From Apibacter adventoris (lineage in GTDB: Bacteria > Bacteroidota > Bacteroidia > Flavobacteriales > Weeksellaceae), in NCBI RefSeq assembly GCF_002964975.1, contig NZ_PSZM01000024.1:62001-126000 (forward strand): DNA of 64,000 nucleotides, written 5' to 3'. Below the pieces are notes generated by a model. It was not told where the DNA came from. It made no database searches and worked only from the letters and a program-made list of their open reading frames with translations. Both the position numbers and the translations under genes were made by a program. Shown here in pieces: positions 5,863 through 47,409 of the stretch; the first letter of the stretch is position 1; the number at the start of each line of letters is the position of its first letter.

Positions 5863-7065
5863 TTACTTTTTGTATTTAAATTGTTTGCTGATTATAAAAG
5901 CTTCACTCCAGCATGCCTGAAAATTAAAACCTCCGGTTACAGCATCTATATTTAACACTTCACCTGCAAAATATAATCCGGAAATCAGTTTAGATTGCAT
6001 GGTTTTAAAATCTATTTCTTTCAAATCAACCCCGCCAGCTGTTACAAATTCATTTTTATAAGTACTTTTTCCATCAATAATTAATTGTGTGTGAGTTATA
6101 ATTTCAGCTATTCTATTGATATCTTTTTTTCCTAGATCTGCTAATAATTTATTGGATATTCCTACATGATCTAAGAGATTTAACCAAAATCGTTGTGTTA
6201 TGTTATAAATTTTTAGAGAAGAAATAGTTTTTTTAGGATGTGCCTGTTTAATTTTATATAGATTTTCTTTGACAGTATCAAATTTTTCAGAGATCCAATT
6301 AATATTTATAGAGAAATTATAATTAAGATTAGCAATTTCTCGAGCTCCCCATGCAGAAAGTCTGAGTATTGCAGGGCCGCTGAGACCCCAATGGGTAATA
6401 AGAATTGGACCGTTTTCCTTTATTTTTAATTGAGGAATAGAAACTTCTGCATTTAGAAAAGAAATTCCTTGTAAATTTTGGATTAAAGAATTTTTACAAT
6501 TAAAAGTGAATAAGCTTGGTACGGGTGGAATAATTTTATGACCTAGTTTTTCAATGATTTTCCACATTTTTTGGGAACTTCCAGTACATATGACTACAGA
6601 GTCTGCACAATATAAATTTTGATTTGTTTGAATATTAAATTTATTTTCATTTTTAGTGATTTGTGTAACTTGGGTTTCATAGGTTATATTTATTTGGTTG
6701 GACGAGGTTTCATTAAGTAATGTATCTATAATAGTTTGAGAAGAATTAGTTTCCGGAAAAATTCTATTATCAGATTCTATTTTTATATTGGTATTTTTAT
6801 TTTTAAACCATTCAATAGTATCTAATGGTTGAAATTGATGAAAAACATTCAAGAGTTCTTTAGCCCCTCTGGGATAAAATTTAGTTAATTCTTTTGGAAC
6901 AAAACAAGCATTTGAAAGATTACATCTTCCTCCCCCAGAAATTTTTAATTTTTGAAGTGGTTTTTTTGCCTGTTCTATTATTAGCACATTCCAATTACAA
7001 TATTTTAGGTTTGAGGCTAAAAAGAATCCAGCAGCACCTCCACCTATTATGATAAGCTGCTTCAT
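5863..7065 (-). CDS. BaiN/RdsA-type NAD(P)/FAD-dependent oxidoreductase
   Basis: Flavoprotein of the HI0933/YhiN/BaiN family, 400 residues, the usual length. The dinucleotide fold GGGAAG is at residues 8-13, the family motif GGRCNLSN near 45-52, and the C-terminal FAD-binding segment reads GLYFAGEVLNIDAVTGGFNF. The substrate is unknown for most members; BaiN acts on bile-acid intermediates and RdsA on sulfur chemistry, but neither role follows here. The gene begins 13 bases after the wzc stop, so it may be the last gene of the polysaccharide transcript by read-through, although nothing in the protein points to sugar metabolism. Confidence 0.88.
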   Translation of the reverse strand: MKQLIIIGGGAAGFFLASNLKYCNWNVLIIEQAKKPLQKLKISGGGRCNLSNACFVPKELTKFYPRGAKELLNVFHQFQPLDTIEWFKNKNTNIKIESDNRIFPETNSSQTIIDTLLNETSSNQINITYETQVTQITKNENKFNIQTNQNLYCADSVVICTGSSQKMWKIIEKLGHKIIPPVPSLFTFNCKNSLIQNLQGISFLNAEVSIPQLKIKENGPILITHWGLSGPAILRLSAWGAREIANLNYNFSININWISEKFDTVKENLYKIKQAHPKKTISSLKIYNITQRFWLNLLDHVGISNKLLADLGKKDINRIAEIITHTQLIIDGKSTYKNEFVTAGGVDLKEIDFKTMQSKLISGLYFAGEVLNIDAVTGGFNFQACWSEAFIISKQFKYKK

Positions 7066-7078
7066 CTCTTATTTAGGT

Positions 7079-9583
7079 TTAAGATTTTTTAAATAATCTT
7101 TTTATTCTTGAAATTAATGAATTATCGTAGATTTCATCTTCTTCAAAATAGCCATAACCATAACCATATCCGTAACCATAACCATATCCATACTCACTCG
7201 AACTCATGTAATCGTTGAAAATTATACCTATGTGATTAACTTCTCCCTCATTATACTTTTCATTAATTCCTTTAAGTAATTGTTTATATGTGTAATTACA
7301 TCTGGTAATATATAATCTGGCATCTGAAAATCTCATAAGGTCATATGCATCTATTACCAATCCAACGGGAGGCGAATCAATAATAACAAAGTCATATAAT
7401 TCTCTTAATTTTTTTATAAGTTCTTCATTTTCATCGCTAATCAATAATTCTCCAGGATTAGGTGGAATAGGACCAGCTGGTATTATATCTAAATTTTCAT
7501 ATTCAGTCTTCTTAATTATTTCATCCAAAGTATTGATTCCTGATAAGTAACCAGATAACCCAATTTTATTACTTATTTTAAAATCATCAAAAATCCTAGG
7601 CTTACGTAAATCCATTCCTACCAATACAGTTTTTTTTCCGCTTAAAGCAATAACTGAGGCTAAGTTTATTGCTATAAATGTTTTTCCCTCTCCGCCAATA
7701 GATGATGTAATAAGAAAAACTTTACCCCCTATTACTTCTTTTTCATTAAATAAGAATCTTAAATTTGAACGAATAGCTCTAAAACTTTCTGAAATACTGG
7801 ATTTGGGTCTATTAAATACGACAAGGTTATTTTCCACATTTTTACTTCCTATAGTTCCTATTATAGGTATTTTTGTAATATTCTTTAAATCAGAAAATAA
7901 TTTTATTTTATTATCTAATAATTCTATTAAAAATAAAGCTAAAAATGGTATGAAAAGAAAAATACTTGTATATGTGATTTGATTTTTTTTGATATTAGGG
8001 GTAATAGGTCCTTGACCGGTATTTTTAGCCTTATCTAAAATATTAATATCAGAAACTGTAGTGGCTTTCCTCATTTCTGCTTCTGAAAGCTTATCTAATA
8101 GTGTATTATATATTCCATCATTTAGTAAGTAGCCTCTTTGAGCATTAACATATAATTGTTCTTTTTCAGGAAGAGTTTCTATTTCGAGTTCTAGGTTATT
8201 TATTTGCTTATTAATGTTATCCATATTATTCAATAGGTCTTTAGAAGAGCTATTTAACATGGAAGAAATTTTTGATTTAGCGTTATTCAATCTATAATTT
8301 ATTTCTTTTATAGGTTCTGAATTAGGTCTATATAAAAATAATTTTTCTCTTTTTTCTTCCTCAAGGCTATGTATTTGCTGTAGAGTGGTATTAAATTCAG
8401 GATTAGTAATTCCTGCTAACGAAAAATCAATAACATCTTTATTGTTATATATAGAGTTTTTTAATTGTGATAATGCATTAATCTTAGTTTTTAGTTCTTC
8501 TTTTTGTTGATCTAAAGTTTGTATTTTAGATAAAACTAAATTAGTAGAACTTTCTGATTTTGAGAAAATTTTATTTTCAAGTTGTACTTTTTGAAAGATA
8601 GCTGAGGCACTATCAAGTTTTTTCTTTGTAATAATAATTTGATTTTTTATAAATAGAATTGTATTTTGATTAACTAGATTTTTATCTTTTAATCGAGTTT
8701 TTATCAATTCTTCAATAGATTTGTTTAAAAAATTAATTGTTCCATTTAAACTTAATCCTTTTTTAGAAACAATCATTATTGAAGATAAATCAGAATCAAA
8801 ATCAACACTTGTGGAAGCTAAAATTTTATTAACAGCATTGTTTATTGTAGAAAGATAAAAATAAAATTCAAAATTTTGCATAGACATATTTCCAATATAT
8901 TCTGGATTAGGTACTATTTTAAATTTTAAATTATTTGTTTTTACCCATGTATTTAAAGAAACTATTAATTGTTTTTTGTATGTATCTTTTCTATTGATAT
9001 ACTCCTCTTTTGGATAATAAAAACATTGTTCATTTACTTCTTCTGGAAATGTTAATTCAAATTTATTTTTAGAAAGATATTTAATTTTCACATGAGAGTT
9101 AAGACTTTGTGCATAGCTTGTGTCTATTAATACTTTAAAAGGAATATCAACATAGTCAATTTCAGTGGTTTTAATATTTCCTTTCAGATAATAATTTATA
9201 TATAAATTTAAAGATTTAACTAGATTTTCATTATGGGTACGGGAAGTCAATATTTTTTTATAAAAAATTCCTTGAGTACCACCGTTATTTCCTCCCCAAA
9301 TAAAATTTATTGATTGGCTGGGAGCTAATACATTAGAAGTACTAGAAGATATACTTACAGAAACTGAGGTTTGATAGAACCTATCAGAAAATCTGTTTAT
9401 TATAAATGCTATGAGCCATCCAATAATAAAAAATATGATAAACCAGTACCAATTTTTTAACAAACGTTTGATAAATCTTTCGATACTAAAGAAATTATTC
9501 TCAAGAATTTCTGAAGCTTTACTTTTTTGATTGACAGACTGATTATTGTCTATATTGTTTTTGTTATTATTTTGCTGATTCAT
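7079..9583 (-). CDS. wzc: Wzc-like polysaccharide co-polymerase with tyrosine autokinase domain
   Basis: Inner-membrane polysaccharide co-polymerase and bacterial tyrosine kinase controlling capsule or exopolysaccharide length and export. It has 834 residues: a first membrane segment near 45-65, a large periplasmic Wzz/GNVR coiled-coil part, a second membrane segment near 540-560, then the kinase. Walker A SSIGGEGKT lies near 625-635, Walker A' KTVLVGMDLRKPR near 655, Walker B DFVIIDSPP near 735. The C-terminus carries the tyrosine cluster as seven Tyr-Gly pairs encoded by hexamer repeats (7152-7193). The start overlaps the wza stop by one base (TAATG), so Wza and Wzc are translationally coupled. 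Confidence 0.93.
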   Translation of the reverse strand: MNQQNNNKNNIDNNQSVNQKSKASEILENNFFSIERFIKRLLKNWYWFIIFFIIGWLIAFIINRFSDRFYQTSVSVSISSSTSNVLAPSQSINFIWGGNNGGTQGIFYKKILTSRTHNENLVKSLNLYINYYLKGNIKTTEIDYVDIPFKVLIDTSYAQSLNSHVKIKYLSKNKFELTFPEEVNEQCFYYPKEEYINRKDTYKKQLIVSLNTWVKTNNLKFKIVPNPEYIGNMSMQNFEFYFYLSTINNAVNKILASTSVDFDSDLSSIMIVSKKGLSLNGTINFLNKSIEELIKTRLKDKNLVNQNTILFIKNQIIITKKKLDSASAIFQKVQLENKIFSKSESSTNLVLSKIQTLDQQKEELKTKINALSQLKNSIYNNKDVIDFSLAGITNPEFNTTLQQIHSLEEEKREKLFLYRPNSEPIKEINYRLNNAKSKISSMLNSSSKDLLNNMDNINKQINNLELEIETLPEKEQLYVNAQRGYLLNDGIYNTLLDKLSEAEMRKATTVSDINILDKAKNTGQGPITPNIKKNQITYTSIFLFIPFLALFLIELLDNKIKLFSDLKNITKIPIIGTIGSKNVENNLVVFNRPKSSISESFRAIRSNLRFLFNEKEVIGGKVFLITSSIGGEGKTFIAINLASVIALSGKKTVLVGMDLRKPRIFDDFKISNKIGLSGYLSGINTLDEIIKKTEYENLDIIPAGPIPPNPGELLISDENEELIKKLRELYDFVIIDSPPVGLVIDAYDLMRFSDARLYITRCNYTYKQLLKGINEKYNEGEVNHIGIIFNDYMSSSEYGYGYGYGYGYGYGYFEEDEIYDNSLISRIKRLFKKS
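7152..7193 (-). repeat. hexamer repeat coding the Tyr-Gly tail of Wzc
   Basis: Seven consecutive 6-base units of the type CCATAA/CCATAT/CCATAC, with one CCGTAA, on the plus strand. On the coding strand they give seven Tyr-Gly dipeptides. A unit gain or loss keeps the frame and changes the number of tyrosines in the autophosphorylation tail. Confidence 0.85.
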
Positions 9584-10389
9584 TATAAACTTTTAAAGAA
9601 CACATATGTTGCAATTGCCTGCATTCCTAAAGACAAAAATTGGGTTGCATCTCCAAGAGTTGTACCCCCACCGAGTCCGGATATTTTCTCTTTTAAAGGA
9701 TCTATAATTACTTGATCTCCTGATTGAAGATAAAAATATGGAGAATTTAGAATATCATCACGTGTTATATCTAAAGTAATATTTTTTTTACCTTCTGGAT
9801 ATTCTCTAATTATACGTATATGTCTTCTATCTGCAAATCTTGTTAAATCGCCAGATTTTGCAATAGCTTGCAGTAGATCAATTCTGTTACTTTGTTCAAT
9901 TTTTTCTCCTGGGTTAGATACTTCCCCAACCATATAATATTTTATAGAACCAATGTTCATCCTTACTTCAGCTTTTCCTTCATTGTATAATACTTGGTTT
10001 AATTTTGCTTGTACTAAATCTGTAACCTCACTTAAAGTAAGTCCATAAACATAAAATTCACCCAATCCATATATAGTTATATATCCGTTAGGGTCGACTA
10101 TTAGGCCTCCTGTTCTTAATCTGCCATCATTTGGATTAGTTCCACCTTTAAAATAAGTAGTATTTTCATTAGTTAGAAATTTTGCTGCATTTTCATCAGA
10201 AGTGATAAGAGTCATTGTAAGGATATCATCTTTTTTTATCCTATATTTTTCATAAGCTACAGGAATTAATCCATATTGGTTTAATTGTAAATTTTCACTT
10301 GGTTGAAGGTATTTTAATTTTTTAACTCCTATACAAGAACTAAGCAAGATTGAATTTAATATAATAAATATAAATATTTTTATCTTCAT
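9583..10389 (-). CDS. wza: Wza-like polysaccharide export lipoprotein
   Basis: Outer-membrane polysaccharide export protein of the Poly_export/SLBB family, partner of Wzc. I take the ATG at 10387-10389 as start: it gives MKIKIFIFIILNSILLSSC, a clean lipoprotein leader with Cys at the lipobox. The longer frame, beginning at 10413, would put eight extra residues in front. The export domain covers roughly residues 45-150 (KDDILTMTLITSDENA ... VDPNGYITIYGLGEFYVYG), followed by an SLBB region (YYMVGEVSNPGEK). At 268 residues it is shorter than enterobacterial Wza, which is normal in Bacteroidota. It is followed by wzc with a one-base overlap. Confidence 0.9.
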   Translation of the reverse strand: MKIKIFIFIILNSILLSSCIGVKKLKYLQPSENLQLNQYGLIPVAYEKYRIKKDDILTMTLITSDENAAKFLTNENTTYFKGGTNPNDGRLRTGGLIVDPNGYITIYGLGEFYVYGLTLSEVTDLVQAKLNQVLYNEGKAEVRMNIGSIKYYMVGEVSNPGEKIEQSNRIDLLQAIAKSGDLTRFADRRHIRIIREYPEGKKNITLDITRDDILNSPYFYLQSGDQVIIDPLKEKISGLGGGTTLGDATQFLSLGMQAIATYVFFKSL

Positions 10390-10419
10390 AGTGAGAATGA
10401 TAATAGTTGGCAAAAATAG

Positions 10420-11469
10420 TTAAATTTTTAATAATTGGCTATACTTTTTAATTTCCATTTCTATTTTTTTTAAATTATAATTGTTTAAATTTATTTTGTT
10501 ACATTCTGAACATATCTTTTCTTGTGTTTCATATGAAAAATTAAGTTCTTCATCAAATTTTTCATACTTTTTAGATTTAGATTTTGTGTAAGAGATATTG
10601 GGGGTATAATCCAAATTTAATTTTTGTAAAATTTTAAAGAGTATTTTTTCTATTATATAAGGTTGCCCCATATTGAGTATATAAATTCCTGATGAAAATA
10701 AAGGGTTTGATAGAATAATTAATCCCTTAGTTGCTTGAAATTTAGATATAAAATAACGTTTCATACTTTTATGATTTATTGTAATAGGAAGTTTATTTTC
10801 AATTTGAAATTTGAAAATGTTAAATATGGACCCATTACTATTGAAAACATTTCCGAAACGTAAAATTTTAACTTTAAAATTATCTTTTTTTGTAAGAACC
10901 TCCTTAATAAGATAGAGTTCAGTTATTCTTTTAGAAATTCCCATCTTATTTATTGGGTTAACAGCTTTATCTGTAGATATAAAAATAAATTGTTCTGCAT
11001 TTTGTTTTTTGGCAGTAAACAAAATATTTAAGGTAGCTTCAGTATTGACAGAAATTAATTCGGTGCTGTTATTTTCTAAAATAGCAATATGCTTATATGC
11101 TGCAGCATGATATATGATTTGAATAGGAAAAGTAGAAAAAATATGATTTATTGTATCTTGATTTCTTATATCTCCTAAAATTAAAAAAAGCTTTTTATTT
11201 TCAATAGCTGTTTTAAAAAACAACCCTAATTGAAAAATCCCATATTCAGAATGATCAAGGGCTATAATCTTTTTAATATTTTGATTTAAAAGATGTTTAA
11301 TTAAAGAACTACCAATAGAACCAGCTCCACCTGTTATAAGAATAGTTTTGTTTTTTAAATAATTATTCTTCTGTAATGAAACATCAATTTTCTTGTCAAA
11401 AATATCTTCAAAATGAATTATTTGATTATTTATATTTAATATGTCTGCTGTATCAATCAAAACATTCAA
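10420..11469 (-). CDS. CapD/FlaA1-type nucleotide-sugar 4,6-dehydratase, soluble short form
   Basis: Short-chain dehydrogenase/reductase of the polysaccharide biosynthesis protein CapD family, expected to turn UDP-GlcNAc or a relative into a 4-keto-6-deoxy sugar. The NAD-binding motif GGAGSIG is at residues 47-53. The active-site region STDKAVNPINKMGISKR lies near 165-181 and has Met where ordinary SDRs have Tyr, as in the FlaA1/WbpM group. At 349 residues it lacks the N-terminal membrane domain of the 600-residue PglF/WbpM type and begins near that domain boundary. Cys residues near the C-terminus (KICSEC) are a curiosity. Seven bases separate it from the upstream aminotransferase gene, its likely partner. 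Confidence 0.82.
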   Translation of the reverse strand: MNVLIDTADILNINNQIIHFEDIFDKKIDVSLQKNNYLKNKTILITGGAGSIGSSLIKHLLNQNIKKIIALDHSEYGIFQLGLFFKTAIENKKLFLILGDIRNQDTINHIFSTFPIQIIYHAAAYKHIAILENNSTELISVNTEATLNILFTAKKQNAEQFIFISTDKAVNPINKMGISKRITELYLIKEVLTKKDNFKVKILRFGNVFNSNGSIFNIFKFQIENKLPITINHKSMKRYFISKFQATKGLIILSNPLFSSGIYILNMGQPYIIEKILFKILQKLNLDYTPNISYTKSKSKKYEKFDEELNFSYETQEKICSECNKINLNNYNLKKIEMEIKKYSQLLKI

Positions 11470-11475
11470 CTTTAT

Positions 11476-12597
11476 TTATAAATTTTTATCAATTATATTT
11501 ATAATTCTTTTTAATTTATTCTTGGTAAGATTATTTCCGGAAGGTAAACTTAAACCGTGTTTGAATAAATAATTTTCAAAACTTTTATCTCCATAAAAAA
11601 AGTAATTTTTAAAAACTGTTTGTTTATATAATGGATTCCATAAATATCGAGATTCTATTCCTTTTTTATTTAAAATATCTTTAATTTTTTTGTTTAAGTC
11701 TTTGGGGAAAATAAATGAACTTAACCATCTATTAGAAAAACAGTTTTCATCTTCTATTTGAGATTCAATTTCTAATTTATTTTTAAAATAAGATAAATAA
11801 TAGTTAAAAATATTTCTTCGTTGTGTAACTTTTTGATTGAGACTTTTAAACTGGGCTAATCCTATGGCTGCTAATATATTACTTTGAGAATAATTATATC
11901 CTAATTCTTCATGTTTATAATAATCTATATCTTCTTTAGCTTGATTAGCTAGTTTTTTAGCATAGGAATAATCTTTTTGATTAGGTAATATTAAAGCTCC
12001 TCCTGTAGAACAAGTAATAATTTTATTGCCATTAAAAGAAAGAATTCCATAGTCACCTAATTGTCCTAGTGGCAAATTAAAATATTTAGATCCTAAAGCT
12101 TCTGCAGCATCTTCTATAATTTTAATATTATAATTTTTACAAATATCAAAAATACTTTTCATATTACAAGGCATCCCATATATATGAGCTACAATTAATA
12201 CTTTTGGTTGTATATTTTTATTTTTTAAATTTATTAATGCATGTTCTAAATATTCAGGAGATAAATTCCAACTTTTTTGATCAGCACCAATAAATACTGG
12301 TATTGCCTTTTGGTACAATATCGGAAATGCTGTTGCAGCAAAAGTAAAATCAGAACATAAAACATAGTCTCCCTCTTTTATATTTAAAATTTTTAATGCT
12401 AAGTGAATAGCAGATGTACCATTATTAGTAAGTAATATATTTTTATGGGAATAATAAAGAGATAATTTTTTGGTAAAATTATCAATAAATGAACCAAAAG
12501 GTGATATCCATCCACTCAATAATGCTTCATTTACAAATTTTATTTCTTTATTTGTAATGCAGGGGGGGGAAAGATATATTTTATTTGTTGTGTCCAA
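11476..12597 (-). CDS. DegT/DnrJ/EryC1/StrS sugar aminotransferase
   Basis: PLP-dependent aminotransferase of the sugar type, 373 residues. The PLP lysine is in LSFNGNKIITCSTGG near residue 189; the segment EDAAEALGSKY is the conserved cofactor-binding Asp region. Next to a 4,6-dehydratase it most likely makes a 4-amino-4,6-dideoxy sugar, as PglE does in bacillosamine synthesis. The adjacency is the basis for that inference. No acetyltransferase of the PglD type is seen nearby. It lies in the polysaccharide operon, four bases after the WecA-like gene. Confidence 0.88.
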   Translation of the reverse strand: MDTTNKIYLSPPCITNKEIKFVNEALLSGWISPFGSFIDNFTKKLSLYYSHKNILLTNNGTSAIHLALKILNIKEGDYVLCSDFTFAATAFPILYQKAIPVFIGADQKSWNLSPEYLEHALINLKNKNIQPKVLIVAHIYGMPCNMKSIFDICKNYNIKIIEDAAEALGSKYFNLPLGQLGDYGILSFNGNKIITCSTGGALILPNQKDYSYAKKLANQAKEDIDYYKHEELGYNYSQSNILAAIGLAQFKSLNQKVTQRRNIFNYYLSYFKNKLEIESQIEDENCFSNRWLSSFIFPKDLNKKIKDILNKKGIESRYLWNPLYKQTVFKNYFFYGDKSFENYLFKHGLSLPSGNNLTKNKLKRIINIIDKNL

Positions 12598-38207: not shown

Positions 38208-39615
38208 ATATTGTACTGGGTACTCCCGGTTCGGGTAAGTCATACGCCGTTGTTAATCAGTATATGAAACAACAGATTGAAAAAGGATTCTCTATGTACG
38301 TGTATGATTTCAAGTTTCCAGACTTATCAATGATTGCTTACAACCATTTACTAAACAATTAATTAGGCTACAAGAAAGTACCGACCTTTTATGTGATAAA
38401 CTTCGACGATCCTTCCCGTTCGCACCGATGCAACCCGATTAATCCGTCCTTTATGGACGACATTTCGGACGCATACGAAAGTGCTTATACCATAATGCTT
38501 AACTTGAATAAAACGTGGGTGCAGAAGCAAGGCGATTTCTTTGTAGAATCTCCGATTATCCTATTTGCTTCTATAATATGGTATCTCCGAATTTATCAGG
38601 ACGGAAAGTATTGTACGTTCCCACACGCGATTGAGTTCCTGAATAAACGCTACGAAGATATATTTCCGATTCTCACCTCATATCCCGAACTCGAAAACTA
38701 TTTAAGTTCCTTTATGGATGCGAGGCTTGGAGGGGCAGCAGATCAATTGATGGGACAGATAAACAGTGCGAAAATTCCGCTATCGAGGATGGTTTTGCCA
38801 CAGTTATACTGGGTTATGAGTGGCGATGAATTTTCATTGGATATAAACAATCCCGATGATCCGAAAGTATTGGTTGTAGGTAATAATCCTGACCGTCAGA
38901 ATATTTAATTTACGGTGCAGCTCTGGGATAGTACAACTCTCGTATTGTGAAGCTCATCAACAAAAAAGGTCAGCTAAAAAGTTCGTTTGTAATTGATGAG
39001 TTGCCCACAATTTATTTTAAGGGACTAGATAACCTGATAGCAACTGCACGTAGTAATAAGGTTGCCGTACTGTTGGGATTTCAGGACTTTTCCCAATTAA
39101 CAAGGGACTATGGAGATAAAGAAGCTAAAGTCGTGATGAACACGGTCGGCAATATTTTCTCTGGTCGAGTCGTGGGAGAAACAGCAAAAACGCTTTCCGA
39201 CAGGTTTGGAAAGGTATTACAGAAACGCCAAAGTATGAGTATTACCCGAAGTGATAAAACGACCTCTATCAGCACACAAATGGACAGCCTGATACCACCG
39301 TCTAAAATCTCCAATCTGACACAAGGTATATTTGTCGGAGCTATTGCGGACAATTTCGACGAACGTATCGAGCAAAAGATTTTTCATTGCGAAATTGTTG
39401 TAGATAATGCAAAGGTAGCCGCCGAAACTAAGGCGTATCAACCTATCCCTGTTATTACCGATTTTACAGATGAAAACGGAGAAAATAAAATGAAAGAACG
39501 AATACAACTCAACTATAATCGTATAAAAGAGGAAGTTAAGCTAATAGTTGCTGATGAATTGGAGCGAATCAAGAATGACCTGGCATTGGCCCATTTGTTG
39601 CAACAAGGGGAATAA
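38204..39615 (+). pseudogene. traG conjugation coupling ATPase, decayed
   Basis: Remains of the TraG/VirD4-like ATPase of Bacteroidota conjugative elements. Walker A GTPGSGKSYAVVN is at about 38222; then KGFSMYVYDFKFPDLSMIAYN, FYVINFDDPSRSHRCNPINP, VGNNPDRQNI, SFVIDELPTIYFKG, FQDFSQLTRDYGD and GNIFSGRVVGETAKTLSDRFG follow in order. The N-terminal membrane part is lost at the fusion with the integrase. The frame is broken by a TAA at 38360-38362, by a 5-base tandem duplication (ATTTAATTTA, near 38903) that shifts frame into a TAA at 38906-38908, and by a TAG near 38926-38930 in the resumed frame. G+C is clearly higher than around (the 60 bases from 38401 have 32 G or C). Confidence 0.85.
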
Positions 39616-41273: not shown

Positions 41274-42622
41274 TCAATAAAGTCCACACTTATGAGCTAT
41301 ATCTAAAACCATAGAAGAAGAATAACCTCCAGTTGCTCCATTATGCCAATATAACTCTTTATTATCTTCTGATTTGATAATATGCCATCCCAATGCCACC
41401 TCGATTCTTTCATTTAAGATGTAAGTTGGAGTCCTTGTTAAAGCTAATTCCACATTGGTACTATCAAATTGGGCTTTTGCAAATTTAGATAAATCATTTG
41501 TTGTTGACAAAATCCCTCCTGCACCTAATAATACATCGGAATTCCACTCCCAGTTTTTAATTGTGTTTCCATCATCTAATCCGCAGACTAAACTTCCTTT
41601 GACTTTACTTATATTTGTGAACGAACTTGTCATTTCATATTTTTCGAAAATTTTTTCTTCAAATAGGTCTTCTAGATTTTCTCCTTCAACTAAACTTAAT
41701 GTATACCCTAGTATACCAACTCCTAAGTTTGAATATTTATATTGTTTATGAGACAATTGAATAGAATCTAAATCTTTTTGAAGATAGGAGTACAAATCAT
41801 TTTTATTATATTCTTTGTATGGATTAACAAAATTTTCTTTTGTACTTAACTTTAAATAATTTAGAGCATTTAAATTTGAAGGCAATGCAGATAAACCCGA
41901 TGTATGATTAGATAAACTTTTGAAATTAAGCTCTATATTATCCTTGAACGGAAAATTATAGCACTTGCTAATATTATCGTCTAATTTGATAAAAGAGTTG
42001 CTGTAAAAACTTTAGATATAGAACCTATTTCAAAAACCGCATTTTTGTTTTCTACTTCTTTTAATGTGTTATTTGATTTTACAATACCATAAAAGCTAGT
42101 AACTCCATCTTTTATAAAAGCAATCGCTATCTGAGTATTGTTAGGAAAGTCTTTAGTCTGTTCTACAATTGCATTAATCTGTTTTTGAGGGAGATTCTTT
42201 AATGCACTCTTTTCATAGGACTTAGGGTTTGATCTAGATATATTATAGGGTTTGAAAAGAAACTCTTCTATTTTATCTTATTCATTGATTGTTAACATCA
42301 GAACAAGCTTTTTTCTCTCAAAAGTTATTTTATAGAATACATTAGAACCATTTTCCGATTGTTTTACTAATTGACTATTGATGATATTACCACAGTTGTT
42401 TTTAAGGTATGATAAAAATTGATTTGTAATATCTAAGGTTAATACTTGTTTCATCTCATTAGAGAATGAATTCTGAAATGTATCGTAATTACCGGAATTG
42501 TAAGAGTCTTGTAGTTTACTTGCTATGCTGTCAAATTTCTTATTCTGAGCCGACATGTAATTGCTAGGTAAGCTAATTATTAGAAATAATAAATTTAGAT
42601 ACACTCTCATATTTCTTGTCAT
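41274..42622 (-). pseudogene. serine hydrolase (beta-lactamase family) with N-terminal DUF3887-like domain, broken
   Basis: One gene in three pieces. From 42622 it reads a signal peptide (MRVYLNLLFLIISL ... MSAQNKK) and a DUF3887-like domain, ending ...MLTINE at a TAA (42278-42280). The same frame goes straight on as DKIEEFLFKPYN ... FEIGSISKVFTATLL with the SxxK motif SISK, until a TAG at 41981-41983. A frame change plus a probable small deletion follows, and the other frame continues KLDDNISK ... NHTSGLSALP, YSNLG (YxN) and WHNGATGG (HxG). The C-terminus stops early at DIAHKCGLY. The family comprises PBP4-like or AmpC-like esterases and peptidases. It starts 24 bases downstream of the barrel 1 gene, so it was probably in that operon. 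Confidence 0.8.
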
Positions 42623-42646: not shown

Positions 42647-43603
42647 TTATCTTTGGAATTTATATTTCAATCCAATAGAGCCATAGGCAGAGACACCAAA
42701 GCTAGGATGTTTATCAGATTCTATTTTATTAAATCCATTATTATCATAAGAAATAGACTTATCATCATCAAAAAAAGCTTTGATAGTCCTATCCTTATAG
42801 TACACTTCACGCGACATACTTACTCCTATTGTTATAGGAATTGATAGAGATTTACCTAGCAAAAATTCAGGTTGCAATCCTAGATATCCATATTGAGTAA
42901 CAAAATACATATCTTTACCATCCTTATTTACAGCAGACATCAACCCTTTAAATTCACCAATTAATCCTAATTTAAACTTGTCATTAAACTGAGTAGTAAC
43001 ACCGATTTTAAATGAATTGTACATAGACAAATTGAATTGATATTTACCGTCTAACCTCCAATCTAGATAAAATGAGGGGAATATCATTGGATAACCCAAA
43101 GCATTATTTAGAGCAACACCTACACCCCAATCTAGATTCTGTTTGGCATGACGGATAAATAAGACTCCACCTTGTCCTAATATTGCTTTTCCTGATATTT
43201 TATCTAAGTCAGATGTAAATATGCCTACACCCAATAAAGCCATCATTGACCATTTATCGTTTAATGGTCGTATATGAATTAATCCCACTTGAGCATTAAG
43301 AATTTCAGATTCAGAATAAATTTTTGATAAATTTTCGTTTCCTAAAGAAGCATAAGTACCACTTAATGCAACAGCCCACGCTTTAGGCTTATTATTTTCA
43401 TTCATTTTGATGGATATTGGTACCTGTACACTTCCATCAATTGTTTTTAAATCACCCTTTCCTCCTAATTTATTTCCGTCGGCATCTTTAAATTTTGATG
43501 ATGTAATATATTCTGATTTTATCTCTATCTGTGCGTATCCATTATTTCCAAATACTATGATAAAAAAGCTAATCGTTACTATTTTCATTAATTTATATTC
43601 CAT
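42647..43603 (-). CDS. outer membrane beta-barrel protein (DUF6268-like), barrel 1
   Basis: A secreted protein of 318 residues when started at MEYKLMKIV (43603); the next ATG (43588) gives the tidier leader MKIVTISFFIIVFGNNGYAQ. A long upstream open stretch to 43795 is non-coding in character and holds the promoter. The body alternates polar and hydrophobic residues like a beta-barrel, ends in Tyr-Lys-Phe-Gln-Arg, and contains HIRPLNDKWSMMALLGVGIF and GVALNNALGYPMIFPSFY. These blocks are shared with the gene at 44584-45486, so the two are paralogues. I believe both belong to DUF6268. The function is unknown. Confidence 0.75.
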   Translation of the reverse strand: MEYKLMKIVTISFFIIVFGNNGYAQIEIKSEYITSSKFKDADGNKLGGKGDLKTIDGSVQVPISIKMNENNKPKAWAVALSGTYASLGNENLSKIYSESEILNAQVGLIHIRPLNDKWSMMALLGVGIFTSDLDKISGKAILGQGGVLFIRHAKQNLDWGVGVALNNALGYPMIFPSFYLDWRLDGKYQFNLSMYNSFKIGVTTQFNDKFKLGLIGEFKGLMSAVNKDGKDMYFVTQYGYLGLQPEFLLGKSLSIPITIGVSMSREVYYKDRTIKAFFDDDKSISYDNNGFNKIESDKHPSFGVSAYGSIGLKYKFQR

Positions 43604-43628: not shown

Positions 43629-43636
43629 CGAAAGTA
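43629..43636 (-). promoter_or_regulatory. -7-like element of barrel 1 gene
   Basis: TACTTTCG on the minus strand differs from TAnnTTTG at one base. It is 26 bases ahead of the start at 43603 and 28 bases downstream of the direct repeats at 43665-43695. There is no TTG at -33, which would fit an activator-dependent promoter. Confidence 0.45.
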
Positions 43637-43664
43637 GACAATAAGAGATAGCAGATTTTTTATA

Positions 43665-43695
43665 TAGACCAAAGTAATATTTTTGTAGACAAACG
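43665..43695. promoter_or_regulatory. direct repeats, putative LytTR-type operator of barrel 1
   Basis: TAGACCAAAG (43665-43674) and TAGACAAACG (43686-43695) match at eight of ten bases and are 21 bp apart from start to start, two helical turns. A third TAGAC lies at 43635-43639. LytTR regulators bind pairs of imperfect direct repeats about two turns apart. The core GAC(A/C)AA resembles GACGAA in the repeats in front of lytS. Confidence 0.45.
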
Positions 43696-43824
43696 AAATC
43701 AAGAACACATATCTGTTAGTTTGAATATTATTTTTTCTTTTCAACTGATAAACCATCTTTCTAAAAAGAGAATAATAAAAGCAAGGTTTTAGCAAAGAAT
43801 ACTCTTGAAATATGTTATTCTTTT

Positions 43825-44580
43825 TTACTTGTATTTTCTCATTTTTATTACGATATAAATACAGAATGGCATAAACAAACCAACAAGACTTAAATATAGC
43901 ATTTCTATCAATTTTATATTTTGAGATATATTGACAACAATTTCTTCAAATAGTAATAAGGCACATAAATTAAATGATGAATGTATTATGATAGCAGCGA
44001 CTATATTTCCTTTTGTTTTTAGATATAACCAACTGATAATAATAGAAAGTTCTGTGGTTAATAGTATGTATATAAAAAAAACGAAAATTCCTGCTTGAAA
44101 TCGTAAGTGCCAAATGCCCCAAAAAACACCAATAAGAACACTTGAAATTAAATATGAATGTTTTCTCAGAAGTATGGGTAACATAAAACCTCTCCATCCT
44201 ATTTCTTCTCCAATACTGCCCAAGATAATCAAGAGTAGGTATAAAGAATACATACCTAAAGAATGATGTAAAGTTGGAAATAAAAACCCTTGATGTTTTA
44301 TAAACGATATTATCAAGAAAGAAATTCCACATACAACAAAAGGTATAGTAAAAGCCAATATATACCATTTAATATCAGTTTTATTGAAAGCCATTTTATA
44401 CAAAAGTTTTTTCAGACCAATTTTCCCATTTATCAAATAAGTCATCCAAATCGCAAAAAAGGCAGGAGTCCATTGTTGTGGTACTTCATCTAAGGAATAG
44501 ATTACCGTAATCGCTAATACCAAACAGATATTTAATAGACTATATAAAGAAATTAAATGATTGGCTATAAATTTTTTCAT
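43825..44580 (-). CDS. CPBP-family intramembrane metalloprotease
   Basis: A 251-residue polytopic membrane protein with the CPBP/CAAX protease signature LGSIGEEIGWRGFMLPIL (EExxxR) near residue 125 and GVFWGIWHLRFQ with the second metal ligand, then IIHSSFNLCALL as the third motif. It begins three bases after the stop of the barrel 2 gene, so the two are cotranscribed. The substrate is unknown; a link to envelope stress or peptide processing is inferred from the two-component system next door. Confidence 0.85.
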   Translation of the reverse strand: MKKFIANHLISLYSLLNICLVLAITVIYSLDEVPQQWTPAFFAIWMTYLINGKIGLKKLLYKMAFNKTDIKWYILAFTIPFVVCGISFLIISFIKHQGFLFPTLHHSLGMYSLYLLLIILGSIGEEIGWRGFMLPILLRKHSYLISSVLIGVFWGIWHLRFQAGIFVFFIYILLTTELSIIISWLYLKTKGNIVAAIIIHSSFNLCALLLFEEIVVNISQNIKLIEMLYLSLVGLFMPFCIYIVIKMRKYK

Positions 44581-44583
44581 ACC

Positions 44584-45486
44584 CTAAAATCCTATATTTA
44601 GCCCTGCTGAAGTATAAGGAGCTATTTGAAAATAATATTCTTTATCCTGAAACATGCTTTTTATGTTTCTATTCGTTATCTCAGCTGGGCGTATTGCACT
44701 AATACCAGCTGTAATGAGTATAAAAATCTGTTTGCCTATCTTTATTTCGGGACGGAATCCTGCTACAATATATTGGTGTGAGAATATCTTATCTTTTCCA
44801 TCTTGTTCTATAAAAGCCATTTGTCCATTCATTTCGGCTACAATATTTAGGCTTAAATATTTGTTGACGTTATATCCTGCTGACATTTCTAAGCCGTCCA
44901 TCATTGATATCTTTACAGCATATTTCCCTTCGGCAGTCCAATTAAAATAAAAAGCAAGAAATACCATTGGATAGCCGAAAGAATTATTCATAGATATACC
45001 TAAACCGAGTTCAAGATTTGGTTTAAAATGATAAATAAAAATAGCAGAAGCATTTCCAAGTACATTTTTTAATCGGATTTTGGAAAATTGGGTACTTGGC
45101 ATATAAATACCTCCGCCAACACTTGCCATCATAGACCATTTGTCATTTAATGGACGAAGATGATCAAGACTTAGCCCCATATTCATAATTTCATCGATGA
45201 CTAAAGGCTCTGTAAAATTTTTGTTATCAAGTTTTGCATAAGCTCCTCCTGCACTAATAGACCACATCTTTAGACGGTTCTTATCATTTAGACTCACAGA
45301 CAATGGAATATTAATACCTCCCTGATATACTGTTGCTGAACCTTTGCTATTTCCGATCTTTTCATCTCGATCTCCTTCTGTCATACGGTAACCGGATTTA
45401 CCGAAATATTCCGTTTTAAACATGATTTGTGCATTTATGTTTGTATATCCAATAAGCATAAATGCAATAACTAATATCTTTTTCAT
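44584..45486 (-). CDS. outer membrane beta-barrel protein (DUF6268-like), barrel 2
   Basis: A 300-residue secreted protein with a signal peptide MKKILVIAFMLIGYTNINAQ. It is a paralogue of the protein at 42647-43603: LDHLRPLNDKWSMMASVGGGIY and LGISMNNSFGYPMVFLAFYF align with the same blocks there. The rest alternates like a beta-barrel and ends in the aromatic residue Phe (GLNIGF), as outer membrane barrels do. It heads an operon with the CPBP protease and is transcribed away from lytS. Confidence 0.78.
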   Translation of the reverse strand: MKKILVIAFMLIGYTNINAQIMFKTEYFGKSGYRMTEGDRDEKIGNSKGSATVYQGGINIPLSVSLNDKNRLKMWSISAGGAYAKLDNKNFTEPLVIDEIMNMGLSLDHLRPLNDKWSMMASVGGGIYMPSTQFSKIRLKNVLGNASAIFIYHFKPNLELGLGISMNNSFGYPMVFLAFYFNWTAEGKYAVKISMMDGLEMSAGYNVNKYLSLNIVAEMNGQMAFIEQDGKDKIFSHQYIVAGFRPEIKIGKQIFILITAGISAIRPAEITNRNIKSMFQDKEYYFQIAPYTSAGLNIGF

Positions 45487-45525
45487 ATTGAGTTTTTTTT
45501 AATGAATAATTTGATTCTGTTTCAT

Positions 45526-45533
45526 CAAAATTC
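45526..45533 (-). promoter_or_regulatory. -7-like element of barrel 2 gene
   Basis: GAATTTTG on the minus strand differs from TAnnTTTG at one base. It lies 39 bases ahead of the barrel 2 start codon and 28 bases downstream of the nearer direct repeat (45562-45571). It is a weak match on its own; the spacing equals that at barrel 1. Confidence 0.35.
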
Positions 45534-45561
45534 ATTTTTTTAGAATGTTATTACGATTTTT

Positions 45562-45593
45562 TTTGACGAATCATTGAGTTGCCTTTGACGAAT
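45562..45593. promoter_or_regulatory. direct repeats, putative LytTR operator in the lytS / barrel 2 divergent region
   Basis: Two identical copies of TTTGACGAAT at 45562-45571 and 45584-45593, 22 bp from start to start. The reverse complement ATTCGTCAAA resembles the CCGTTCGTC half-site known for the LytTR regulator AlgR. The second copy is 26 bases upstream of the TAAATTTG in front of lytS, the first is 28 bases upstream of the -7-like element of barrel 2. Confidence 0.6.
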
Positions 45594-45619
45594 GATAATA
45601 GACCTGTCAGTTAATGCGT

Positions 45620-45627
45620 TAAATTTG
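45620..45627 (+). promoter_or_regulatory. -7 element of lytS
   Basis: TAAATTTG is an exact TAnnTTTG match ending four bases before the lytS ATG. It has no TTG at the -33 distance; the direct repeats take that place, which would suit positive autoregulation. The start site would lie at or next to the ATG. Confidence 0.45.
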
Positions 45628-45631
45628 TAGT

Positions 45632-46654
45632 ATGAGAATAAAAAATTATATAATAGAGAATTACATTATTCTTATCTTTTGGGTAATTGTAACTTTTGTT
45701 ATGTGGTTACAGATCATTCCACAAACAGAGTCTTTGATTGAAGCTACATTATATCCAGTTTTGGCAATGTTATCTGTTTTCCCATTTGTAAAATATCTAA
45801 GCGAGACATTATTACAGAGGGCAATGAAGCAAAAAACAACAGTGGTCTTCATCCTTCAGTTTTTAGGTATTTCAATCATTACAGGTATAATTTTCACCTT
45901 ATATCAATATTTTTTCACTTTTTTAGAGAAAGAAGGAGTTTTTCCTCTATCGATATATTTCAATATGGATGATCTTCCTAACTTTTATATACTTATCTTT
46001 CTCTCGTCAGGAATTTTGATCAATTTATGCATTTGTGGACTACGTTTTTTTCAGGAAAATACAAAGTTGAAACGAACACTTATCGAGTACCAGCTTCGAT
46101 CTTTACAACACCAAGTTACTCCGCATTTTATGTTCAATGTATTGAACCATATCCATATATTGATGCAGACAAATGTAAAATTGGCATCTAATCTGTTGAT
46201 TAAATATTCCGAAATTTTGCGTTATCAACTATATAATGGAGACAAGCAAATAACATTGGAGCAAGATATTCAATTCCTGAAAGATTATATTGCGGTTGAA
46301 GAGTTTCGTTGGGAAGATAAATTAACAGTTTCTAGTTCTTGGGAAATAGAAAAACCTCAAATGGAGATACCATCATTGTTGTTTATCACATTTATCGAAA
46401 ACGCATTTAAGCATGTATCGAAGTCCGGTTTTGAAAAAGGATATATCAATATTGACTTTGAGCAAAAAGAGAATACAATCTCCCTAAATGTGGAAAACTC
46501 TAAGTCCACATTATCCACAAAGAAAAAGAACGTAGGAGGTTTAGGTTTAAAAAATATAAAACAACGATTGGAAATTCTATATTTTGGAAAATATAACTTG
46601 TCTGTAAAAGAAACAGAGGCTACATACCATACCAAAATTATTATTAATATATAA
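45632..46654 (+). CDS. LytS/YehU-type sensor histidine kinase
   Basis: A 340-residue inner-membrane kinase. Four membrane segments occupy about residues 8-145 with no extracytoplasmic domain of size. The phospho-acceptor motif QHQVTPHFMFNVLNHI near residue 168 is that of the His_kinase (LytS) family. The ATPase part shows FIENAFKHVSK (N box) and GGLGLKNIKQRL (G box). It senses an unknown signal in or near the membrane. It lies two bases ahead of its response regulator and is divergent from barrel 2. Confidence 0.92.
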   Translation: MRIKNYIIENYIILIFWVIVTFVMWLQIIPQTESLIEATLYPVLAMLSVFPFVKYLSETLLQRAMKQKTTVVFILQFLGISIITGIIFTLYQYFFTFLEKEGVFPLSIYFNMDDLPNFYILIFLSSGILINLCICGLRFFQENTKLKRTLIEYQLRSLQHQVTPHFMFNVLNHIHILMQTNVKLASNLLIKYSEILRYQLYNGDKQITLEQDIQFLKDYIAVEEFRWEDKLTVSSSWEIEKPQMEIPSLLFITFIENAFKHVSKSGFEKGYINIDFEQKENTISLNVENSKSTLSTKKKNVGGLGLKNIKQRLEILYFGKYNLSVKETEATYHTKIIINI

Positions 46655-46656
46655 AA

Positions 46657-47409
46657 ATGACTGAACTAATCTCAAAAAATACAATACAAACTCAACTAAG
46701 CTGTTTAGTGGTTGATGATGAATCTATTGCGATAAAAGGAATTGAGAATTATATAAGCAAAATAGATTTTATGGAAGTTACTGATACATGTTCATCAGCA
46801 TTAGAAGCAGCTGAGATATTCAAAAAGAAAAAGATCGATCTGATGTTTTTGGATATTAATATGCCTCATCTTTCAGGGTTAGAGTTCTTAGAATCACTTG
46901 GGAAACCTCCGTTAACGATAATCACTACCGCTTATTCTGAGTATGCACTTGATGGCTTCAGACTTAATGTCGTTGATTATCTCTTGAAACCAATTGCATT
47001 TCAGCGTTTCTTTCAAGCTATATCGAAAGCTCAGGATATGTTTCGATCTCAAGAGATATTGCAAAATGAACAAGAGGGAGTGATGACAAATATGTATGTT
47101 CGGCAAGGAGATGCTTTTCAACGAATTGCATGGGAAGATATTCTTTATGCCGAAGGAATGCAGAATTATGTAAAATTGTATTTTACGAATAAGGTATTAA
47201 CAATACATCAGACAATGGCTTCTTTGGAAGAAATCCTACCTCAATATTATTTTTTCAGGATACACCGATCGTACTTGATAAATATATCTCATATTCATAA
47301 AATATCGGGAGGACAGGTTCTTATTAATGGCAGTCTCCTACCTATTGCGAAGCCAAGACGAGAGAAACTTTTAAACACTGTGGTATATAAGAATTTGATA
47401 AGTAAATGA
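46657..47409 (+). CDS. LytTR-family response regulator
   Basis: A 250-residue regulator: receiver domain with VVDDESIAIKG (acidic pocket), the phospho-accepting Asp in LMFLDINMPHLSG near residue 68, the TTAYSEYA block and the Lys of YLLKPI; then a LytTR DNA-binding domain with EDILYAEGMQNYVKLYF and FFRIHRSYLINISHIHKI. It is the partner of the kinase upstream (two-base gap). LytTR proteins bind pairs of direct repeats, which are found in front of this operon and of both barrel genes. Confidence 0.93.
   Translation: MTELISKNTIQTQLSCLVVDDESIAIKGIENYISKIDFMEVTDTCSSALEAAEIFKKKKIDLMFLDINMPHLSGLEFLESLGKPPLTIITTAYSEYALDGFRLNVVDYLLKPIAFQRFFQAISKAQDMFRSQEILQNEQEGVMTNMYVRQGDAFQRIAWEDILYAEGMQNYVKLYFTNKVLTIHQTMASLEEILPQYYFFRIHRSYLINISHIHKISGGQVLINGSLLPIAKPRREKLLNTVVYKNLISK

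Follow-up and report, generated by a model that had tools for sequence, protein, structure and literature searches.

Recurrent pairing of DUF6268 barrels with putatively dedicated LytTR regulators in Bacteroidota, and a predicted direct-repeat operator in Apibacter adventoris

The LytTR direct-repeat operators with which the present locus is compared come from Gram-positive bacteria. LytTR regulators are described as binding direct repeats of 8–13 bp that lie about 12 bp apart (PMC4064291), and the repeats of LytTR activators are reported to stand often 10 bp upstream of the -35 element (PMC6193735). For Flavobacterium psychrophilum, positions -12 to -5 are reported to hold the -7 box, TAnnTTTG (PMC9723704). 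Neither a mapped LytTR operator in Bacteroidota nor a functional account of DUF6268 was found in the open-access literature, and searches there for LytTR together with Bacteroidetes, Flavobacterium, Elizabethkingia or Bacteroides did not retrieve the barrel module described below; a search for DUF6268 itself retrieved one paper. Mutations in a LytTR/kinase pair were reported in a coevolution study of Flavobacterium johnsoniae (PMC10197871), but no link with this module was found. In the window, i.e., the whole 64-kb stretch of A. adventoris DNA analysed here, two direct repeats about 21–22 bp apart stand at a fixed distance from a promoter core between a lytS-type kinase gene and the gene of a predicted outer-membrane barrel (operator A).

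Gene content and setting of the locus

The window belongs to a genome of 2.75 Mb with a G+C content of 25–34% over 4-kb bins. A TraG-type fragment is followed by the genes of a serine hydrolase, a DUF3887 protein, barrel 1, a CPBP protease and barrel 2 on the reverse strand and by lytS-lytTR on the forward strand, with an AraC-type gene as the other border (Table 1). The fragment, of a TraG/TraD-type coupling protein (38947–39615), lies beside the island and may be what is left of a conjugative element. The kinase gene adjoins that of the response regulator (RR), 2 nt upstream of it, and both domain scores of the RR exceed the cut-off, i.e., a receiver and a LytTR DNA-binding domain are present.

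Table 1. Positions of the features discussed, in window coordinates unless a contig is named.
Feature	Position	Strand	Basis or remark
Serine hydrolase, beta-lactamase fold, frameshifted remnant	41274–42260	-	Family match and frameshift
DUF3887 protein	42278–42622	-	Family match; downstream of barrel 1
Barrel 1, DUF6268	42647–43603	-	Family match
-7-like box of barrel 1, TACTTTCG	43629–43636	-	End 35 nt from half-site
Operator C, half-sites TTTGTCTAC and TTGGTCTAT	43664–43693	-	Period 21; before barrel 1
CPBP/Rce1-like membrane protease	43825–44580	-	Family match; begins 3 nt past barrel 2
Barrel 2, DUF6268 (PF19783)	44584–45486	-	Family match and predicted barrel; N-terminal signal-like helix
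-7-like box of barrel 2, GAATTTTG	45526–45533	-	End 36 nt from nearer half-site
Operator A, two direct half-sites TTCGTCAAA (barrel-2 strand)	45562–45592	-	Period 22
-7 box of lytS, TAAATTTG	45620–45627	+	End 35 nt from other half-site
lytS-type histidine kinase	45632–46654	+	PF06580 (GHKL), 73 bits
LytTR response regulator (RR)	46657–47409	+	PF00072, 71.7 bits; PF04397, 65 bits
C36 operon (L177, G000:C36)	7054–12360, contig C36		Outer-membrane-receptor-like gene and HK-HK-RR

The two barrels of the window score 352.6 and 370.8 bits against PF19783 (cut-off 22.8). The structure prediction of barrel 2 (pLDDT 84.4) shows about 14 strands, and a structure search returned generic barrels (OmpG, FadL) with TM scores of at most 0.50 in the 50 matches listed and no specific match among them; barrel 2 is predicted to be an outer-membrane barrel of about 14 strands. 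With barrel 2 as the query, matches were obtained in 3 of 60 near relatives, the window's own genome counted, and its closest named relatives are Bacteroidales with 71–73% identity (Segatella, Alloprevotella, Prevotella, Hoylesella, Dysgonomonas). Since the window RR, in turn, shares 80% identity with an RR of Chitinophaga, the DUF6268/LytTR module seems to move between orders.

A sequence-only reading of the window had placed the CPBP protease and the serine hydrolase among the targets of the regulator. The CPBP gene, separated from barrel 2 by a 3-nt gap, probably shares an operon with it. However, phmmer (E ≤ 1e-3) detected no CPBP homolog in loci L065–L158, and the protease is local cargo of the window locus, not a conserved part of the module. 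The serine hydrolase was ruled out as an intact member of the module by the frameshift in its gene.

Operator A and the pairing of DUF6268 with LytTR regulators

Direct reading placed TTTGACGAAT at 45562–45571 and 45584–45593 (22-bp period) and the barrel-1 repeats, TAGACCAAAG and TAGACAAACG, at 43665 and 43686 (21-bp period), where the sequence-only reading had located them (45562/45584 and 43665/43686). Its TAnnTTTG-like boxes at 45620, 45526 and 43629 also stand, and by eye a -33 TTG is absent from the lytS, barrel 2 and barrel 1 promoters of the window. The two copies of TTTGACGAAT are the only exact ones in the 64-kb window. In the whole genome, the operator A pattern (22-bp period, up to three mismatches) had one match against five in the control, and its 21-bp-period version had eight against 12. 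An exact 10-mer direct repeat with a period of 18–26 occurs in 0.2% of random 145-bp stretches, and about two are expected in 64 kb, of which the window holds 13, 10 of them in one repetitive run. The barrel-2 repeat is rare for its intergenic stretch yet unremarkable across 64 kb; the relatives decide. With a matrix built without the window, operator A reaches 26.0 bits (P ≤ 2.5e-4).

Half-sites identical to those of the window (TTCGTCAAA twice, 22 bp) are found in divergent loci of Prevotellaceae (L097–L099, L104) and Chitinophaga (L101). Filimonas, Dysgonomonas, Tannerella-like and Flavobacterium loci carry variant half-sites, and degenerate ones occur in Flavobacterium and Chryseobacterium-like loci. 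In the Chryseobacterium-like layout, the barrel is convergent to the RR and has the same upstream design as in the window, typically (T/G)TnGTCATA, 12 bp and TTAATCAAG, followed by a CTCTTTG box whose end lies 36 nt further on. When each genome or locus is counted once and the window is excluded, 60 of 64 class-A relatives have a site at the fixed distance from the -7 box, a count that is partly circular because half-sites of the counted relatives served to train the class-A matrix and only the window was held out. The misses are G117, G089, G217 and L100, the last with an upstream shortened by start-codon choice and a box that also ends at 36 nt. The same combination is absent from all 408 upstreams taken from other genes as controls; five of them do attain 11 bits but lack the geometry. 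Among the 62 upstreams with at least 11 bits (window included), TTTG or TTCG ends exactly 36 nt past the nearer half-site in 56 and at 37 nt in three. Of the 62, 57 have a period of 21 and five one of 22, the half-site pair chosen for L011 and L072 being displaced.

Across 59 genomes of one genus, the operator pattern, which was written from these same sites and would let variant sites escape, matched exactly in 27, once each, and directly upstream of DUF6268 in all 21 of these with a known DUF6268 position. With one mismatch allowed, 34 matches in 31 of the 59 genomes were obtained, against 11 in the control. Within the limit of this pattern search, the RR of operator A looks like a single-target regulator. 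The expectation that the repeats persist in relatives that keep the genes was generally borne out, with exceptions such as Segatella buccae (L096), whose barrel is 73% identical to barrel 2 and has neither the repeats nor an RR in the flank.

Some loci show a disrupted arrangement. In L115, a termite-gut Tannerellaceae MAG, the operator occurs twice, flanking an insert that parts the kinase from the barrel, and an insert of about 1.2 kb lies likewise between kinase and barrel in L114. Pedobacter cryoconitis (L102) has kept the operator with no kinase or RR within the flank, and a DUF6268 fragment lies downstream.

The proposed link of the LytS/LytTR pair with barrel 2 was followed in the family that holds the Chryseobacterium-named records (Weeksellaceae), and it is supported by gene neighbourhood. 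An RR ortholog is present in 59 of the 246 family genomes with 54–60% identity (100% in the window's own), the next matches standing at about 40%. DUF6268 with at least 250 bits occurs in 60 family genomes, namely all 59 with the RR ortholog and G197, in which a truncated DUF6268 lies beside an RR fragment. In 59 of 59 genomes (window's included), RR and DUF6268 share one contig and are at most 1466 bp apart. Among the named DUF6268 loci, HK and RR both occur in the retrieved flank of 52 of 63, at a distance of up to 1.2 kb in 48 of these; the other 11 are L096, L102, L106–L108, L110–L112, L139, L149 (cut by a contig end) and L153. The share of random genes with a LytTR gene no more than 6 kb away is estimated at about 4% or less, a figure that follows from the 0–15 LytTR genes per genome in 80 family genomes and has the family, not the 63 loci, as its base.

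The distances among RRs and those among DUF6268 proteins are correlated (Mantel r 0.70, 75 loci; L086, which is type B in the RR tree and probably has a spurious RR, was dropped). The divergent, tandem, convergent and operon layouts are clustered on the RR tree, with 7 changes versus 35 for shuffled labels, and the divergent and convergent types intermingle. Sphingobacterium-like and second-copy Chryseobacterium-like operator types show a self-similarity peak at offset 21 (offsets 12–32), and some of the second-copy loci carry three half-sites. Among the weak DUF6268 members, L087 and L088 are without HK/RR, and L089, L090 and L091 have one nearby. On this evidence from genomes, the pairing of a DUF6268 barrel with a putatively dedicated LytTR regulator recurs in many Bacteroidota.

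A near-identical DUF6268 stretch with no kinase or RR in the flank is found in Myroides, Sinomicrobium and Parapedobacter (L110, L111 and L112, respectively) and is probably mobile.

Of 44 loci scanned, 25 have the gene of an LpxL-like lipid A acyltransferase after that of DUF6268, and 13 that of a TolC-type outer-membrane efflux protein; these 44 are the same-strand neighbours that remain from 48 (62 loci) when L111, L112, L153 and L155 are left out, and the tally is also without 12 opposite-strand neighbours and two loci lacking a neighbour. Such neighbours are a hint of envelope defence.

Barrel 1 and a second LytTR system on contig C36

The repeat before barrel 1 was rejected as significant by itself, since a pair of equal or better quality turned up in 1644 of 3000 random 221-bp stretches. 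With a matrix from the orthologs L151, L169 and L170, no site in the window outscores that of barrel 1 (19.3 bits, P ≤ 2.5e-4), whereas it scores 6.2 bits (P = 0.16) under the window-type matrix, i.e., the operator type is unlike that of barrel 2. The barrel-1 ortholog of G493 shares 66% identity. Two kinases and a LytTR RR of another subfamily come after the barrel gene on the same strand in G493, in G605 and in L151, a Parabacteroides MAG. These three loci carry 21-bp repeats, TTCGTCTAT/TTTGTCCAC or close to them, with the half-site form TTNGTCYAY, and a TAnnTTTG box ends at 36, 35 and 36 nt, respectively.

Contig C36 of the window genome encodes an RR that is 71% identical to that of G493 and groups with the RRs of the three loci with a support of 100/100. 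The apparent operon is led by a 784-aa outer-membrane-receptor-like gene (named by eye from its sequence) behind the operator TCCGTCTAT/TTTGTCTAC, which scores 19.8 bits and has a TAnnTTTA box ending at 36. Because the barrel-1 half-sites fit those of its own orthologs, and the RR subfamily of these orthologs is present on C36 behind a like operator, barrel 1 most likely answers to the C36 regulator. However, the C36 system is headed by another outer-membrane gene and not by a DUF6268 barrel, which counts against this assignment. A genome scan with the barrel-1/C36-derived pattern returned those two exact sites and 10 others with 1–2 mismatches, versus 29 in the control. Cross-regulation between the barrel-2 and barrel-1 systems is possible, since TTNGTC is common to both kinds of half-sites. 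The LytTR-type operators at a near-constant -7 distance that the sequence-only reading proposed before both barrels are backed by the sites of the orthologs; it probably merged two true operators, and with them two systems, into one.

Promoter geometry, proposed mechanism and comparison with known systems

The 36-nt distance, together with a -7 box spanning -12 to -5, puts the end of the near half-site of barrel 2 at about -41, a position known to be used by LytTR activators. TTTTTG stands near -33 in the Chryseobacterium-like relatives and is absent in the window; since the promoters of the relatives differ in this way, the argument for activation at a weak promoter is drawn from the window only. 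On the kinase side, the other half-site and the end of the box, a conserved TAnnTTTG, are separated by 35–36 nt in the window, L097–L100 and L109. The distance is 32 nt in L104, 3 bp shorter than the 35 of its close relatives, and only TTTA-type boxes fit at 35–36 in L101 and L150. Across orders, the lytS ATG stands four bases past the -7 box (45620–45634 in the window; L097–L100, L104 and L109), a gap that would put +1 on the A of the ATG, so that the lytS transcript is predicted to be leaderless. None of 27 kinase upstreams in the convergent Chryseobacterium-like layout has the site with the geometry, and one reaches 11 bits.

From the sequences, their conservation and geometry, the gene pairing and the subfamily placement, we infer a chain of phosphorylation, binding and activation, together with a signal and a purpose. 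The LytS kinase would phosphorylate its LytTR partner, and a dimer of the latter would bind both TTCGTCAAA half-sites, two DNA turns apart. As the barrel-2 promoter is without a good -33 element, the bound RR may recruit the polymerase there and switch on barrel 2 and CPBP. The same operator probably raises lytS-lytTR too, since the divergent genes put it at a nearly equal distance from the lytS -7 box. This positive feedback is the weakest step and plausible in the divergent layout only; the self-activation of lytS that had been proposed thus finds support there and loses it in the convergent layout. The sister operator of barrel 1 (TTTGTCTAC/TTGGTCTAT) most likely answers to the C36 regulator on the other contig. 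The module would be one case of the Bacteroidota-wide DUF6268/dedicated-LytTR pairing, probably remodelling the outer membrane under envelope stress. As a whole, a dedicated LytTR switch at operator A, C36 control of barrel 1 and a phylum-wide pairing offer the best explanation, in which we have fair confidence.

That the repeats are chance or AT-rich noise is hardly credible. A stretch of 64 kb should contain about two exact 10-mer repeats of this kind, and by themselves the barrel-1 repeats do not exceed chance, but site and geometry are conserved across orders of Bacteroidota. The single regulon originally proposed, in which the window RR controls lytSR, barrel 2-CPBP and barrel 1, would account for the common locus and orientation, the common TTNGTC core, the near-equal spacing to the -7 box (35 and 36 nt) and the 13.3 bits that operator A also reaches with the barrel-1-type matrix. 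Nevertheless, it is unlikely, as barrel 1 fits the window-type matrix poorly (6.2 versus 19.3 bits) and its orthologs accompany another RR subfamily, which the genome holds on C36 behind TCCGTCTAT/TTTGTCTAC. Judged by these matrices and subfamilies, two parallel, dedicated LytTR systems are likelier than one regulon.

Alternatively, operator A may serve the barrel only. In that case, lytS-lytTR would have a leaderless promoter that is not regulated, and the compact arrangement of the divergent genes would by itself produce the equal spacing. The 27 Chryseobacterium-like kinase upstreams without site and geometry, whose barrels keep theirs, and the kinase-side spacing of 32 in L104 versus 35 in its close relatives would fit this view, whereas the 35–36 nt and the conserved TAnnTTTG box in the window, L097–L100 and L109 speak for a role on both sides; a barrel-only operator has an appreciable chance of being correct, if short of an even one. 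The RR could also repress the barrel by occupying the region upstream of the promoter, since the computed results fit either sign of regulation. Repression is quite improbable, however, because the sites reach down to about -41 and not into the -33 region, the window promoters are without a -33 TTG, and Streptococcus HdrR is reported to activate from similarly placed repeats (PMC6193735).

Beyond the preferred reading of a dedicated, activating switch, a wider picture can be drawn, which we regard as tentative and open to considerable doubt. DUF6268 and LytTR kinases may form a phylum-wide surveillance, with the barrel either in the sensing loop or as the main effector, in which a dedicated single-target switch reports and mends damage to the outer membrane in concert with LpxL-like acylation of lipid A or TolC/RND efflux, several copies being insulated from one another by a half-site code. 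The operator, promoter geometry and target are now testable for several LytTR subfamilies at once, and the uncharacterised barrel family DUF6268 is tied to a signalling system. In addition, paralogous switches with distinct half-sites in one genome are a naturally occurring test case for the specificity of LytTR regulators.

Control by LytTR direct repeats is already known, whereas the widespread DUF6268 pairing was not found described. The streptococcal Sil locus, reportedly a quorum system beside the CAAX protease SilX, is said to appear in papers that mention LytTR (PMC9298176, PMC2766830); it is a bacteriocin system, and the CPBP gene of the window is absent from the related loci scanned. 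AlgZ/AlgR of Pseudomonas aeruginosa resembles the window system as a kinase/LytTR pair, and the AlgR box CCGTTCGTC has TTCGTC in common with the half-site (PMC4064291), a likeness already pointed out in the sequence-only reading. However, AlgR boxes are described there as not necessarily being direct repeats 12 bp apart, and the AlgR targets are alginate and pilus genes. The Streptococcus LRS (HdrRM, BrsRM) are likewise reported to use direct repeats 11–13 bp apart close upstream of the -35 element and to show positive feedback (PMC6193735). An LRS consists of a LytTR regulator and a membrane protein, whereas the window encodes a kinase and an RR with a receiver domain, and the presence of these domains rules out its assignment to the LRS. 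The LytTR regulators reviewed in PMC4064291 share with the present one the LytTR domain and two imperfect direct half-sites of 8–13 bp about 12 bp apart. In the present system, by contrast, a predicted outer-membrane barrel is the conserved target, with a promoter that belongs to the Bacteroidota -7 type.
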